From positions 1-24,269 of IMG/VR virus record IMGVR_UViG_3300027849_000059: a stretch of 24,269 nt of DNA; one strand, written 5' to 3'. A program made the position numbers and the translations under genes. Positions 12,075 to 19,468 of this stretch are shown one piece after another; position 1 is the stretch's first letter; each line of letters opens with the position of its first letter. This DNA comes from a virus. Below the pieces are notes generated by a model that worked only from the letters and a program-made list of their open reading frames with translations, did not search any database and had not been told where the DNA came from.

Positions 12075-15000
12075 ATGGGAGAGTTTGTTAGAGTTTTCCA
12101 ATCAGGGAGAATGAACAAAGACCTGGATGAACGCTTAGTTCCGAATGGCGAATACAGAGATGCCTTAAATTTAGACTTAGCTAATTCTGACGGAAGTGAC
12201 GTTGGTGCTTTACAAAGTATAAAGGGTAACTCAGAACTTAAATTTAAAGTTTCTAGCGGAAAAGATCAAAGCTGGACATCTAATTATATAAATAGCTTAT
12301 CTAATGCTCAATGTATAGGTACATATAGAGATGATGCTAACGAAAAAATCTACTGGTTCATAGCCAGTGATACCGTAAGCGCTATAGCTGAGTATGATCA
12401 AACTTCAAATACAGTATCTCCTATTTTAGTTGATGCGCAAAATATATTAAAATTTTCCGCGGATTATCGTATTACTGGAATAAACACAATTGATAACCTT
12501 TTGTTTTGGACTGATGATCAAACAGAACCAAAGAAAATAAATATTGATAAATTTAAAACAGGATCTGTAGACTTTGTTACTCAAACAAAAATACCTTTAT
12601 GGATACCTTCTCAAAACACATATTCAGCAAATTTAACCGGACAACCTGACTTTACAGAAGCGGATGTTACTGTGATTAAAAAATCGCCGTTGCCATCGCT
12701 AACTTTAAATATGGCTCCGTCTTTATTTGGTGCTGACCAACCAGGTACTGGCACTACACCTGTATCAACTTCTTATACAGCTAGTGGATCCACAGGTACA
12801 TTAGAGAATTTTACATACGTACCCGACGTGGCCGCTGCTCCTGGAGATACGGAATCTTTACCTACTTTTGGTACTTGGTCAGATAATGTTGCTTTAGACT
12901 CTGCTTACTATGCGGGAAGTAACTTACCTGCAGGCTATAATGGTACTAATCAAATAGTTATAAGCCAACTTGCTCCAGCTTGGTCACAAGAACCTAATTC
13001 AATAATTGTATTATCAGGATCATATACTAATGAATACAACGAAGTATTTAATTACGATCTAAGAGCTTTAATAGTATCAGTAAACAATACTACAGTTACT
13101 ATAAAGATATTATCAATAACAAATGAAATACAAATATTTGCTTCTCCTGTCATATGGGATTGTTTAATTGTAGAAAAAGAACCATTATTTGAATATGTTT
13201 TTCCTAGATTTGCATATAGATGGAAATACATAGATAATGAATATTCTTGTTTTTCTCCTTTTACAGAAGTAGCTTTTATAGGTAGTGAATTTGAATATTT
13301 ATCTTCAGACGGGCACAATGCTGGTATGACTAATAATATTAGAAAGCTTATACTTGAAAATATTAACTGGGGATCTGAAGAAGTAAGCGAGGTTGACTTG
13401 TTATATAAAGAATCAAACAGCCAAGCTATATATGTTGTTGAAACATTAAAAAGAAAAGATTACACCGTTAACAATGTATTAACTACTACATTTAATATAG
13501 AAAACGAAATATTAGGAGCTATTGTCGAAGCTAACCAAATATTAAGAACATGGGATAATGTACCTAGAGCTGCTAAATCACAAGAAATAACAGGTAATAG
13601 AATTGTATACGGTAATTACTTACAAAATTATAATGTAGATCCTATATCTTTAAATACTGCGGCTTTTAGTCAACCTCACCCAAATTCAGACGATGATTCT
13701 ACTACAAACTTACCTATAGCCTCTGTTAAATCTTTAAGAACATATCAAGCTGGTATTGTATTTAAGGATCCATATGGTAGGGAAGCGCCTGTGTTTACTA
13801 ATAAAACAGCAGCTGTTACTTTTCCAATAACAAATTCAAATTCTGTAAACAAAATAAGTATTACGCCTACTGGAGATGCTCCAACGTGGGCTTCCTCTTA
13901 CAAAGTGTTTATAAAAGAAGGTACTACAGAATACTACAACATTGCTTTAGATAGATATTACAATGCAGATGACGGGAACGTGTGGTTATCTTTTCCATCT
14001 TCAGAAAGAAACAAAATAGATGATGAAACTTATTTAATACTAAAAAAACAGCACGCATCTTCTAAAGCTGTAGATGCATTACATAAATATAAGGTATTAG
14101 CAATAGAAAATGAAGCTCCTAGTTTTATTAAAATTAACAATAAGTCAATAGGTAGAGCAGAATGTGAAATTTTAAACAATTCTAAACCTCAGCTTGACAG
14201 TATATTTTTTAAATTCGATGGGCCTAGCACAGATAGCAACCCAAACTTTAGAGATGGATTTAATTCAAATTCATCATTAAGAATATCTGTAAGTAATTTT
14301 TCAACAAAAACTTATAAAATTGCATCAGGTGGCCCAACAGGTACAGGCAACGAATATTCTGTACAATTAGATGAACCTTTAGGTAATGAGGCTTTTTGGT
14401 TAAACGAATTAGGAGAAGGAGATAAAATAATAATAACTTTATTCGAGCAAGAGTCTCAGGATTTACCTGAATTTGCTGGTAGATTTTTTGTAAAAATTAA
14501 TAGAGATTACGGTTTTGATACCAATATAATTGACACATTTCCTATACAACAAACAGATTATGCTGTAAAAAATTCTTTTGAAGTATTATCACAAAAAAAT
14601 CAAGGAAACGGCAATAATTCTCAAGATGCTGTTTGGTATGACAAAGGAAGTACAAGCGGAAGAAGCTCAAAACGAAAACCTCACGGAGGAAATTGCCCTT
14701 GGAAATACCCTGGGGAATGTTCAGATAATACAAAGTTTACCGTTATGGTGCACGGGCTTCATCGAGATGATAGAAATGACCCTCTTAAATGGTTAGGAGG
14801 AGCTATGGCTGAGATTGATAAAATTGGCACTATCGTTAGATTTGCAGATGCTTCAGGAGTTTTTGGTAAACCTTATATAATAAAAGCTACCACTCGAGAA
14901 TTTAAAAGAAGAGGTATGCGTAGGTCAAATAGTAATTACGCAAACTTTAGTAACGGTAGAAACCAGTGGAACATTGAGTTAGAAGAGCCTTACTCTGATC

Positions 15001-16496
15001 AAGATTTGTTTACAAATAGATTAGGATCAAACCCTATTACTCAAATACAAATTTTAGAAAAAGTACAAAAAGACGGTAACAAGACTTTAAGTACTAATGA
15101 TCCTGCAATATTTGAAACAGAACCTAAGGAAAGTGTTGATTTAGACTTTTATCATGAAGCTTCAGGTTCTTTTAGCATAGCTGATTACAATACTACTAAA
15201 ATTATCGATTGGTTTAATGTTTTTGCTTTTGGTAATGGAGTAGAATCCAATAGAATAAGGGATGATTACAATGCAGTAACTATAGATAAAGGCCCTAAAC
15301 TTTCTACAATATTAGACGAACCATATGCAGCTGAAAGACGCGGAAATGGAATGATATTTTCACAAATATATAACTCAACATCCGGCGTAAATAGATTAAA
15401 TCAATTTATTCAAGCATTACCTATAACAAAAGACTTAAATCCTATTTACGGTACAATACAAAAACTTCACTCTAGAGACACTGATTTAATATCTCTATGC
15501 GAAGATAAGTGTTTAAGAATATTAGCTAATAAGGATGCTTTATACAACGCTGACGGCAATGCAAATGTTACATCTAATAATAATGTATTGGGTCAAGCTG
15601 TTCCTTACGCTGGGGAATTTGGTATATCTAAAAATCCTGAGTCATTTGCATCTTATGGTTTTAGAACTTATTTTACAGATAAAAACAGAGGAGCAGTAAT
15701 AAGATTATCAAGAGACGGAATTACTAACATAGCTGACAAAGGCATGGGAGGATTTTTTGCAGATAACCTAAGAACTTCAACAACTGCTATTGGTAGTTAT
15801 GATGATGATAAAGATTTATATAATTTAACTTTAAATAATTTATCTCCTTTCTGGCAATCAAAATTAAGTAGCGATGCAACTTATCAATTAAATGAAGATT
15901 GCTCTGTAGCTACGCCCCTTGTACCAAATACTACGGTTTCATTTAAAGAAGCTGTTGCTGGATGGACCAGTAGGAAAGATTTTATAAAAGAAGGAGGGAT
16001 TACTTTAAATAACATATATTACACATTTAAGAACGGATTATTATGGGAGCATGGAAGTAATTCTTTATATAATAACTTTTATAACATTCAATATATTAGC
16101 TCTTTTAATGTTATTATAAACGAAATGCCGCAATTGGTTAAAGGATTCAGTGCTTTAAATTACACAGGCACACAATCTAAAGTTATTGAATATCAAAACA
16201 ATACTAAATGGTATTCTATAGCAGAAATTAATGCTAATCAACTTATACCAACTGCTACTCAGCAGAAAAAAGCTGGATGGGCGGTAAACTATATTAAAAC
16301 AGATTTAGAAGGTGGAGAAATTAAAGAATTTCAAAATAAAGAAGGTAAATATTTTAATTACATAAAAGCTTTAAGTATTTTTAATGATTGTGATGTAGTA
16401 GGGGACGGAATAGGTAATCCATCTTCAACATCAAGTGATGCTCAAAACTATTTTCTTACTGTAAAAATAGATACTACTTGCAGTAATCCTTCATAA
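12075..16496 (+). CDS. Very large tail hub / 'stabilization' protein with propeller-like N-terminus
   Basis: A 1473-residue protein, the largest complete gene here. Its start, VFQSGRMNKDLDERLVPNGEY followed by DALNLDLANSDGSDVGALQ, matches the family annotated as tail or head-closure 'stabilization' protein in Bacteroidetes phages, comparable in role to P22 gp10. Residues about 80-160 contain blade-like repeats (EKIYWFIASDT, then LLFWTDDQTEPKKINIDKF) that resemble YWTD-type propeller blades. The middle is a long mixed beta region with many Asn/Ser/Thr. A basic, Gly- and Cys-containing insert sits near residues 857-880 (KGSTSGRSSKRKPHGGNCP). Later segments (RDTDLISLCEDKCLRILANKDALY; SYGFRTYFTDKNRGAVIRLSRDG) again look like propeller blades. 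It probably forms the tail-tube hub to which the downstream adhesin attaches. No enzymatic residue pattern is evident. Confidence 0.65.
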   Translation: MGEFVRVFQSGRMNKDLDERLVPNGEYRDALNLDLANSDGSDVGALQSIKGNSELKFKVSSGKDQSWTSNYINSLSNAQCIGTYRDDANEKIYWFIASDTVSAIAEYDQTSNTVSPILVDAQNILKFSADYRITGINTIDNLLFWTDDQTEPKKINIDKFKTGSVDFVTQTKIPLWIPSQNTYSANLTGQPDFTEADVTVIKKSPLPSLTLNMAPSLFGADQPGTGTTPVSTSYTASGSTGTLENFTYVPDVAAAPGDTESLPTFGTWSDNVALDSAYYAGSNLPAGYNGTNQIVISQLAPAWSQEPNSIIVLSGSYTNEYNEVFNYDLRALIVSVNNTTVTIKILSITNEIQIFASPVIWDCLIVEKEPLFEYVFPRFAYRWKYIDNEYSCFSPFTEVAFIGSEFEYLSSDGHNAGMTNNIRKLILENINWGSEEVSEVDLLYKESNSQAIYVVETLKRKDYTVNNVLTTTFNIENEILGAIVEANQILRTWDNVPRAAKSQEITGNRIVYGNYLQNYNVDPISLNTAAFSQPHPNSDDDSTTNLPIASVKSLRTYQAGIVFKDPYGREAPVFTNKTAAVTFPITNSNSVNKISITPTGDAPTWASSYKVFIKEGTTEYYNIALDRYYNADDGNVWLSFPSSERNKIDDETYLILKKQHASSKAVDALHKYKVLAIENEAPSFIKINNKSIGRAECEILNNSKPQLDSIFFKFDGPSTDSNPNFRDGFNSNSSLRISVSNFSTKTYKIASGGPTGTGNEYSVQLDEPLGNEAFWLNELGEGDKIIITLFEQESQDLPEFAGRFFVKINRDYGFDTNIIDTFPIQQTDYAVKNSFEVLSQKNQGNGNNSQDAVWYDKGSTSGRSSKRKPHGGNCPWKYPGECSDNTKFTVMVHGLHRDDRNDPLKWLGGAMAEIDKIGTIVRFADASGVFGKPYIIKATTREFKRRGMRRSNSNYANFSNGRNQWNIELEEPYSDQDLFTNRLGSNPITQIQILEKVQKDGNKTLSTNDPAIFETEPKESVDLDFYHEASGSFSIADYNTTKIIDWFNVFAFGNGVESNRIRDDYNAVTIDKGPKLSTILDEPYAAERRGNGMIFSQIYNSTSGVNRLNQFIQALPITKDLNPIYGTIQKLHSRDTDLISLCEDKCLRILANKDALYNADGNANVTSNNNVLGQAVPYAGEFGISKNPESFASYGFRTYFTDKNRGAVIRLSRDGITNIADKGMGGFFADNLRTSTTAIGSYDDDKDLYNLTLNNLSPFWQSKLSSDATYQLNEDCSVATPLVPNTTVSFKEAVAGWTSRKDFIKEGGITLNNIYYTFKNGLLWEHGSNSLYNNFYNIQYISSFNVIINEMPQLVKGFSALNYTGTQSKVIEYQNNTKWYSIAEINANQLIPTATQQKKAGWAVNYIKTDLEGGEIKEFQNKEGKYFNYIKALSIFNDCDVVGDGIGNPSSTSSDAQNYFLTVKIDTTCSNPS

Positions 16497-16522
16497 TACA
16501 ATAATAAAATAAAAAATAACAC

Positions 16523-17332
16523 ATGCCTGTAACTAATAACAACTACAATTTTACAAATATTGTATACGAAATACCGGAAGCTGCAATTGTTTCAGGACTG
16601 CACCCTACCGCTGTTATTACAATAGCGCCTAATTCTGGGTATAATGCTACTGCATCAAATTTTTCCATGGATCCTGGCTTTTCAGATCCTTCGGTTCTTT
16701 CAATAGTATTTACACAAAATGGATTAAATGTATTATGCACAGTAACATTTGTGACTAATTTTGTTATGCCGTCAAGCAATTATACTATTAATTTATGTGT
16801 TATTGGCGATGCGGATGTTAATTTAATTACTATTGCCGGAGTTGTTAACGCAAGCGTTGGTAGTAATATTAACGGTAATTCTTCAGAAGTAAATACCCCT
16901 TATTCAAATTCAGGTACTTTTCAACAAATTGAAAGCTTATTTACAAGAACTTACAATGCTGATTCTGGGTATTTTTTACAAGCGCCCACTGCTAACATTG
17001 TTACTGGAAATCAATCTAATTATACAATAGCTCAAACACCTACGTATGATGGTGATAATAATTTAACAAATATAAGTTATAACGTAAGTTATATATATCC
17101 CCTACAAAATGTTTCAAGTAATTCTATATCTTTTCAAGTAGCGGCTAAAGCAATATTTACACAAGCTGTAGAAATTACAGCAATACCTTATAGTGGATGG
17201 TTTGTTCCTCAATTGGGAGAAACTAGAACTTTGGAGATATTTGGTGTGCAAGGATCTGTGTATAGCATTACGGCTACAGACGGAACAACTACATTAAATA
17301 TAGCCACCAACGTAACGGAACAACTACATTAA
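16523..17332 (+). CDS. Tail adhesin, N-terminal part (frame broken by 35-bp duplication)
   Basis: A 269-residue open frame made of beta-rich, Ig-like sequence with many Asn/Ser/Thr and very few charged residues, typical of phage tail fibres and adhesins. The last four residues (EQLH) and the stop at 17330-17332 exist only because a 35-bp unit is duplicated at 17282-17351. Without the second copy the frame reads straight into the gene starting at 17353. The fused product would be 857 residues (265 native residues plus 592). The N-terminus would attach to the tail hub encoded just upstream. As drawn, the protein lacks the C-terminal binding modules, so it is probably a truncated form unless the copy number varies in the population or the duplication is an assembly error. 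Confidence 0.7.
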   Translation: MPVTNNNYNFTNIVYEIPEAAIVSGLHPTAVITIAPNSGYNATASNFSMDPGFSDPSVLSIVFTQNGLNVLCTVTFVTNFVMPSSNYTINLCVIGDADVNLITIAGVVNASVGSNINGNSSEVNTPYSNSGTFQQIESLFTRTYNADSGYFLQAPTANIVTGNQSNYTIAQTPTYDGDNNLTNISYNVSYIYPLQNVSSNSISFQVAAKAIFTQAVEITAIPYSGWFVPQLGETRTLEIFGVQGSVYSITATDGTTTLNIATNVTEQLH

Positions 17333-17351
17333 ATATAGCCACCAACGTAAC
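17280..17351 (+). repeat. Perfect 35-bp tandem duplication (period 35, two copies)
   Basis: Bases 17282-17316 and 17317-17351 are identical over all 35 positions, beginning GGAACAACTACATT and ending ACCAACGTAAC; the period extends 2 bases to the left. Because 35 is not a multiple of 3, the second copy shifts the frame and creates the stop at 17330-17332. Removing one copy gives an uninterrupted 2574-base gene from 16523 to 19131. Identity between copies implies a very recent event, slippage still in progress, or an assembly artefact. Confidence 0.95.
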
Positions 17352-17352
17352 T

Positions 17353-19131
17353 ATGATTGCTTCTGGATATCAACAACAGCTTGTTGAATTCCCTGCGACA
17401 ATAGCTTCTAGAACTTGGACTTTTACATATTCAGGAGATATAGGGTCTAGTGTAACACCTAACCCTTTAGTTGTAACTCAATTAGGTTTAAGAGATATAA
17501 TATTTGAACCAAAATCTTCAAGCATTTTTAGCGGAGGATTTGACGTTGTACAACAATTTACCAGTATATCTGAACCTGCTGTTGGGTCTTCTAGTTCTAT
17601 AGCCACTCTTCAGTGGATTATTAGTTCTGTTAGTGGTGATCCTTTAAGTATATTTAATCCTTTAGCAAATGTGGTTTGGGAAGGAAATGAGTCTATAACA
17701 CAATCAGTTACTAGTGCTTCAGGAACCTCTATGACTTTAGATAGCACTACAGGTATAGCTGCCGGCATGAGATTTAATTTAGATGGTAGTACGCAATCAA
17801 TATTAGCATACACTGTTGTTTCTGTGGATTCAGCTACAGCTCTTACTGTAACTCCTAGTTTAACAATATCTAATCCTATAGGTATAACATTTACAAATGA
17901 CAATGGATTTGATGTTGACACTACTGGTTTAACTGCTGTATATACTAACACAGATCAAAGCTCTATAACTATAAGTGGCGATATAATAATAAGTAACTAT
18001 GGAGATACAGATACTGCAATGCAACTTGATTTTAGCGATTGGATTAGTGTTGCAACATCTATTGCATGTAGTGCAGCAACAACATCAGGAGGAGTGGGTA
18101 TAACAGATAATAATGTTGATTTAAGTCCAACTGGCGGTTTATTAGCATTTTTGGTTAATGCACAAGGCGTTCCTGACAAGTTTGAAATAATACACAACGG
18201 AACAAAAAAGGCTACATCCGGAATGACCTCTTTAAATAGTGGTACTTATGATAATTTATACGGCACAACACCTTCTAATACAATTCCTACTAGTTCACAA
18301 ACACTAGTTGTAGATCAATTTATTGGTTCTCAAAAAGGAACAGCTCCTACTAGACAAGCAGCTTTTACAACAGCTACTACTAATAGTGTAACTACAATGA
18401 CAGTTGGCAGTATTACTTATCAACAAGTAATTTGGTGGGAATACACTGCTGCAGATTATACAGCTAGTTCTTTTGCTCAAATAAGAACAACTGGACCTTC
18501 AGGCACAGGTTGGAATATATTAAGACTTTGTTGTCCGGATATAAATTGTACAGGAGCGTCGTCGTCAGCCCCAACAATAACTACAACATCTATAACTAAT
18601 ATAACAAATACAACTGTTGATGTAGGTGGCGTATTAATTAGCGATAACGGATCTGCAATTACAGCTAGAGGTATTCAATATGACACAGACAAATTCTTTA
18701 GTTCTCCTAGTACTTACATTGATTCAGCAACAGGCACTGCTAATTTTAGTACAACCATAACGTCATTAACAGCATGTACTAATTATTTCTTTAGAGCATA
18801 TGCTACAAATAGTATAGGAACTACTTATGGTAATAAACAATCAGCTACAACAACAGGATGTGCATCTATTGCCATGTCTATCTCAAGCAGCTCTTATGCT
18901 TCTGAGACTTTAGCTTGTAATGTTGTACCTACAGGAAATCCTGTAGTTTATTTTACGAATAATACTTTTGACACAGGAAAGTATGCTTATACAGACGCAA
19001 ATTTAACAACCACATTTGTTGGAGATGGTGGCTGGTATTCTATAATGACACCTGATGCTTTAGTAGCTACCAGGATTATTGGTAGTGGTTATACAGGACC
19101 TATAGGAACTATATGCTTAAATCAACCTTAA
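17353..19131 (+). CDS. Tail adhesin, C-terminal part with FN3-like domain
   Basis: A 592-residue frame that continues the 16523 gene once the 35-bp duplication is discounted; the ATG at 17353 is an internal methionine of the original protein (NVT-MIASGY), lying 20 bases after the premature stop, so re-initiation is possible. Modules: an Ig-like beta region at 1-115; a short beta module at 118-170 (SVTSASGTSMTLDSTTGIAAG..., ending ATALTVTP); a further region at 180-400 ending GTGWNILRLCCPDINC; and a fibronectin-III-like domain at about 407-501 with the typical Bacteroidetes ending TNYFFRAYATNSIGTTYGN. The C-terminal cap at about 518-565 (YAYTDANLTTTFVGDGGWYSI) resembles repeat caps in Bacteroidetes-phage tail proteins. 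The likely job is host recognition at the tail tip. Confidence 0.7.
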   Translation: MIASGYQQQLVEFPATIASRTWTFTYSGDIGSSVTPNPLVVTQLGLRDIIFEPKSSSIFSGGFDVVQQFTSISEPAVGSSSSIATLQWIISSVSGDPLSIFNPLANVVWEGNESITQSVTSASGTSMTLDSTTGIAAGMRFNLDGSTQSILAYTVVSVDSATALTVTPSLTISNPIGITFTNDNGFDVDTTGLTAVYTNTDQSSITISGDIIISNYGDTDTAMQLDFSDWISVATSIACSAATTSGGVGITDNNVDLSPTGGLLAFLVNAQGVPDKFEIIHNGTKKATSGMTSLNSGTYDNLYGTTPSNTIPTSSQTLVVDQFIGSQKGTAPTRQAAFTTATTNSVTTMTVGSITYQQVIWWEYTAADYTASSFAQIRTTGPSGTGWNILRLCCPDINCTGASSSAPTITTTSITNITNTTVDVGGVLISDNGSAITARGIQYDTDKFFSSPSTYIDSATGTANFSTTITSLTACTNYFFRAYATNSIGTTYGNKQSATTTGCASIAMSISSSSYASETLACNVVPTGNPVVYFTNNTFDTGKYAYTDANLTTTFVGDGGWYSIMTPDALVATRIIGSGYTGPIGTICLNQP

Positions 19132-19144
19132 TTAAAAATATATA

Positions 19145-19468
19145 ATGGCAAACATAACTATAACATTTCCCAATGCATTACCTGTGGGAATTCAAGTAAC
19201 TGACATAGCTTGGTATGCGGACACGTCTGCAAATACTCAAATAAAAATGGGACCTATAACTTCTATAACCGGGCTTACTATTGTTGTAAATGCTTCAGCG
19301 GGGGTTGTACCTCCAGCTACAGATGATTTTATATTCTATGCTAAAGACCCCATGACCGACACAAGTTCTTTAAAAGGATACTACGCAGAAGCTCAATTTG
19401 TAAATAACTCCACATCGTACGGAGAACTGTTTTCAGTTGGTACAGAGATATTTGAGAGCAGTAAATAA
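19145..19468 (+). CDS. Small conserved virion-type protein
   Basis: A 107-residue beta-rich protein beginning MANITITFPNALPVGIQV and ending SSLKGYYAEAQFVNN...ELFSVGTEIFESSK. I recognise this ending ('S.L.GYYA...NNS...ELF.V..EIFESSK') from small proteins that recur between tail and internal-protein genes of marine Bacteroidetes-type phages and cyanophages; their exact place in the virion is not known to me. It has no signal peptide, cysteine or catalytic motif. The start lies 13 bases after the adhesin stop with an A/T-only leader. A tail or head minor structural role is inferred from genomic position. Confidence 0.55.
   Translation: MANITITFPNALPVGIQVTDIAWYADTSANTQIKMGPITSITGLTIVVNASAGVVPPATDDFIFYAKDPMTDTSSLKGYYAEAQFVNNSTSYGELFSVGTEIFESSK

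Follow-up and report, generated by a model that had tools for sequence, protein, structure and literature searches.

A perfect 35-bp tandem duplication within a putative surface-protein gene of a marine phage contig, most likely technical in source

The locus and its neighbourhood

The window analyzed here is the whole stretch of 24,269 nt deposited as one IMG/VR virus record (IMGVR_UViG_3300027849_000059). It derives from a marine bacteriophage and encodes a terminase, a portal protein, a capsid protein, and a muzzle-type structural protein of 1473 aa. Its phage kin, as judged from sequence matches, are Cellulophaga phi38:1 and the Flavobacterium elemo phages, and the terminase, portal, capsid, and muzzle genes are homologous to those of the Pervagoviridae/Elemovirus flavophages and arranged in the same order. 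The muzzle gene (12075..16496, + strand) matches phrog_14478 with an E value of 5e-144. For the crassvirus muzzle C-terminal domain PF25729, its product scores 25.0 bits, short of the cut-off of 27, and membership of the Crassvirales is therefore not claimed.

Directly 3' of the muzzle gene, on the same strand, lie the two parts of a broken gene for a likely surface protein. The 5' part (16523..17332) encodes 269 aa, and the 3' part (17353..19131) encodes 592 aa from ATG 17353. The break coincides with a perfect tandem duplication on the + strand, of which copy 1 occupies 17280..17314 and copy 2 occupies 17315..17349. The initial annotation had described two identical, adjacent 35-base copies, and the identity was confirmed over all 35 nt. 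The match extends through the dinucleotide AC (17350..17351), a microhomology that brings the maximal repeat to 37 nt at a shift of 35. Anywhere in the record, at shifts of up to 200, a repeat run this long is expected by chance about 2e-14 times, so the repeat is not a chance product; microhomology of at least 2 nt has a chance of about 0.19. The exact 35-mer was absent from the viral contig collection searched, from which the record's own source may be omitted. Strand structures favoring slippage were sought at the duplication, and none was found.

The 5' frame stops at TAA 17330-17332, within copy 2, and its final four residues are out of frame. The 3' frame is stop-free from 17266 to 19131, and across 17266-17332 both frames are open. 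Elsewhere in the record, the reading frames are intact. Removal of one copy had been proposed to fuse the frames of 269 and 592 residues into a single protein of 857 residues. The arithmetic agrees, since (2609-35)/3 gives 857 aa plus a stop, and so do four close relatives, in which a single frame has about 857 residues.

The broken protein has no PHROG match, and in Pfam only an Fn3-like match below the cut-off was obtained. A structure model of the uninterrupted homologue from one close relative, L013 (mean pLDDT 74, pTM 0.40), consists of beta-sandwich domains strung in a chain; its Ig/Fn3-like matches have low TM-scores and include phage minor tail proteins. The modeled beta-sandwich chain and the place of the gene among tail genes make a surface or tail adhesin with a putative role in host binding plausible. 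The earlier label of tail adhesin is thus reasonable on position and fold, although no Pfam or PHROG family above cut-off stands behind it.

The slot after the muzzle gene (16497-19144) differs among related loci. Some relative of the downstream gene is detected at 53 of the 82 distinct muzzle loci and none at the other 29, and in the cultured phages phi38:1 and elemo the place beside the muzzle gene is taken instead by a gene of roughly 400 bp. The gene in this slot is accordingly accessory and variable. Immediately downstream (19145-19468), a 107-aa protein matches, at 32% over 63 aa (E 7e-5), the C-terminal end of a structural protein of MW202828 that is 267 aa long, which suggests a domain shared at this variable site.

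Relatives of the gene

Separate searches with each half of the gene led to the same three close contigs, in each of which the two matches lie side by side. A fourth close relative was found by the search with the first half and again by a profile search. All four (L012-L015, from IMG/VR) carry one uninterrupted frame without the duplication, and DNA alignments against them contain a 35-base gap opposite the extra copy. For twelve more distant relatives (L016-L027), the alignments extend into the second half, and a single frame crosses the junction in 12 of 12. Protein identity is 72-80% among the members of the close set and approximately 38-47% for the distant set. Throughout L012-L027, the homologue lies directly 3' of the muzzle gene, as it does in the record.

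No imperfect or longer array is present near the duplication site in the 4 close and 12 distant relatives, and no second copy occurs in any of them; copy number does not vary among relatives. Two separate genes at the junction were found in none of the 16 relatives that cover it. The duplication is confined to one contig in collections that may leave out near-identical records. A DNA search of annotated phages gave no match, and no relative of the gene was found in bacterial and archaeal genomes. The 267-aa gene that follows the muzzle gene in MW202828 was considered as a precedent for a two-gene arrangement and rejected, as the first half of the broken gene is similar to it in length but unrelated. 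Because all relatives covering the site are uninterrupted there, the split is specific to this contig, and the duplication breaks what was one ancestral gene.

In one distant relative, L025, the gene is broken, but elsewhere than at the junction. This contig (IMGVR_UViG_3300046167_000659, also handled as L197) has frame breaks in the terminase, the portal, the muzzle (four), and the adhesin homologue. It is error-rich and unfit as evidence for gene loss.

Two further observations concern the 3' part. The codon after Met266 (17356-17358, 5 nt 3' of the duplication) encodes Ile; at this position the residues of the close relatives are Asp, Asp, Glu, and Thr. Two or more bases differ from the closest relatives, which may be a further hint that the consensus is locally poor or may simply reflect divergence. 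In the distant L028, L033, L038, and L039, an Fn3-like segment (residues 407-493 of the 3' frame) precedes the segment 236-400 instead of following it, and in L033 and L039 the counterpart of segment 236-400 lies in a separate downstream frame, an arrangement that reads as domain shuffling.

Selection and age of the split

Measured against intact relatives, the 3' part has a dN/dS of 0.13-0.23, the same as among the intact relatives themselves. The codon changes specific to the record in this part comprise 20 synonymous and 6 non-synonymous substitutions, with no stops. The 3' part evolves faster than the muzzle gene. By these substitution patterns, the 3' part is under ordinary purifying selection and free of decay. 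As the two copies are identical and the 3' part is still under purifying selection, the split is recent, and the gene was whole for essentially all its history.

Origin of the duplication

An error of assembly or library preparation has, in our assessment, about an even chance of being the cause of the duplication, and we infer that its source is most likely technical rather than biological. The record carries one surface-protein gene (about 857 residues in relatives), its frame broken once, in this contig only; on this account, the gene would be whole in the phage itself. Two overlapping stretches may have been joined with their overlap left uncollapsed; alternatively, one chimeric molecule may have been taken as the consensus. 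Published curation of metagenomes counts overlaps that failed to collapse (with Ns) and miscounted repeats among assembly errors (PMC7111523). The present case resembles these local errors in being a short, perfect, gene-breaking direct duplication in a single contig, with a parallel in a capsid gene, but differs in that the join has no run of Ns. Duplicated flanks at scaffold gaps, a signature of artefact, were also sought, and the loci examined have no multi-N gaps. The lack of any break or repeat at the site in the 4 close and 12 distant relatives is as expected of an error.

A scan of approximately 3.1 Mb of distinct related sequence for perfect tandem duplications of unit length 18-200 found six. 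In four of them, the unit is divisible by 3 and the frames stay open. The two that break a frame are the 35-bp duplication described here and a 37-bp one in another IMG/VR contig (L169, 4159-4232), which falls among the opening codons of the major capsid gene, so that the frame of the start codon runs for only 19 codons before a stop. The L169 duplication is probably a contig error. Since a viable phage is hardly possible with this capsid break, frame-breaking duplications do occur as contig errors in this material, and the parallel argues for the same source here.

Break rates point the same way. Over 1.94 Mb of control structural genes (terminase, portal, muzzle, and others), frame breaks affect about 9 contigs, L169 and 8 others. 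At this rate, 0.46 breaks are expected in the adhesin set of 99 kb, with a probability of 0.37 for one or more. The set contains two, in this record and in the error-rich L025; with L025 set aside, one is observed. The single break in the record is within expectation, and the record was chosen for study because it is broken.

Several points speak against an error. The other frames are intact and the contig is otherwise sound. A repeat of 37 nt is shorter than the usual short reads, and an assembler should normally cope with it. The 2-nt microhomology fits real slippage, though chance would provide it in about 19% of cases. Finally, L169 is one case, with a unit of 37 instead of 35.

The other reading to which we give substantial weight, though tentatively and at somewhat less than an even chance, is a genuine and very recent tandem duplication. 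Replication slippage or illegitimate recombination at the AC microhomology would have abolished the surface protein, either throughout the phage population or in a portion of it; the change would be tolerated or transient, with passive reversion by loss of a copy possible and no maintained switch. The microhomology at the junction, the identity of the copies, and the undecayed 3' part are all consistent with such an event, as is the accessory nature of the gene (29 of 82 muzzle loci lack a detectable relative downstream). A precedent exists in the side-tail-fiber gene stf of lambda, where biofilm-like culture is known to select fresh frameshifts that remove the tail fiber (PMC2762979). The likeness to laboratory lambda (lambda PaPa), whose stf is frameshifted, is that a small frame-shifting change breaks a fiber gene while relatives are intact and the downstream part is undecayed. 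In stf, by contrast, the mutation was demonstrated in stocks of the phage and its consequences for adsorption were measured (PMC2762979), whereas the 35-bp duplication is known from one metagenomic contig. Purifying selection on the gene in relatives weighs against a fresh loss, no other adhesin locus examined is broken apart from that of the error-rich contig, and the same class of duplication in the L169 capsid gene represents an error or a dead genome.

The initial annotation had listed fresh loss of function and assembly error beside phase variation and a re-initiated split; the first two remain, and the last two fare poorly. We regard phase variation as improbable. In such a switch, slippage would alter the number of units, one copy being on and two or more off, and the 35-bp unit would be gained and lost at the population level. 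A perfect two-copy repeat can lose a copy by slippage, and this one could do so as well; it is perfect, its unit is not a multiple of 3, and it lies inside a likely surface-protein gene. Genes with repeat-number phase variation likewise contain a perfect repeat of non-multiple-of-3 unit within a reading frame. They differ from the present gene, which has two copies only, invariant relatives, and one in-frame copy number. The claim that one or four copies would be in frame proved wrong: a frame begun at 16523 never gets past the TAA inside copy 2, and consequently every array longer than one copy is off. No relative carries more than one copy, or an imperfect array, at the site, no slippage-favoring strand structure accompanies it, and frame breaks are not significantly more common in this gene than in essential genes, so that phase variation of host binding is unsupported. 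L025 was rejected as evidence of recurrent switching, as its contig is also broken in the terminase, the portal, and, four times, the muzzle gene. The literature searched contains no direct precedent for phage tail genes that vary in phase by means of repeats.

Least probable of all, with only a very slim chance, is a functional split, in which each frame would yield a protein of its own, with ribosomes reaching the second through re-initiation at ATG 17353 or through frameshifting. The stop lies 20 nt from ATG 17353, a distance that allows re-initiation in principle, both frames are open over 17266-17332, and selection is apparent on both parts. Against this, ATG 17353 corresponds to Met266, an internal residue that all four close relatives share. 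Its start context scores -9.1 versus +0.8 to +6.8 for 12 of the 17 listed starts (supportive only, as some listed starts are equally low) and is average among internal ATGs (36th percentile). A programmed -1 frameshift was rejected, because a slippery heptamer was sought in the overlap and none was found. In the L013 model, the break falls between strands 257-265 and 271-277 of a predicted beta-domain (pLDDT 83-92); each product would therefore receive half a domain, and two working products are unlikely on this model. The proposal of a split protein re-initiated at ATG 17353 is thus unsupported, given the poor start context and the break inside a predicted domain.

Implications

Were the switch real, a phage would be altering its host-binding protein through repeat number, and this kind of phase variation could be tested directly. 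The present case is ordinary. When a metagenomic phage contig contains a short, perfect duplication that breaks a frame, as here and in the capsid case, it should be checked against reads before it is given a biological reading.
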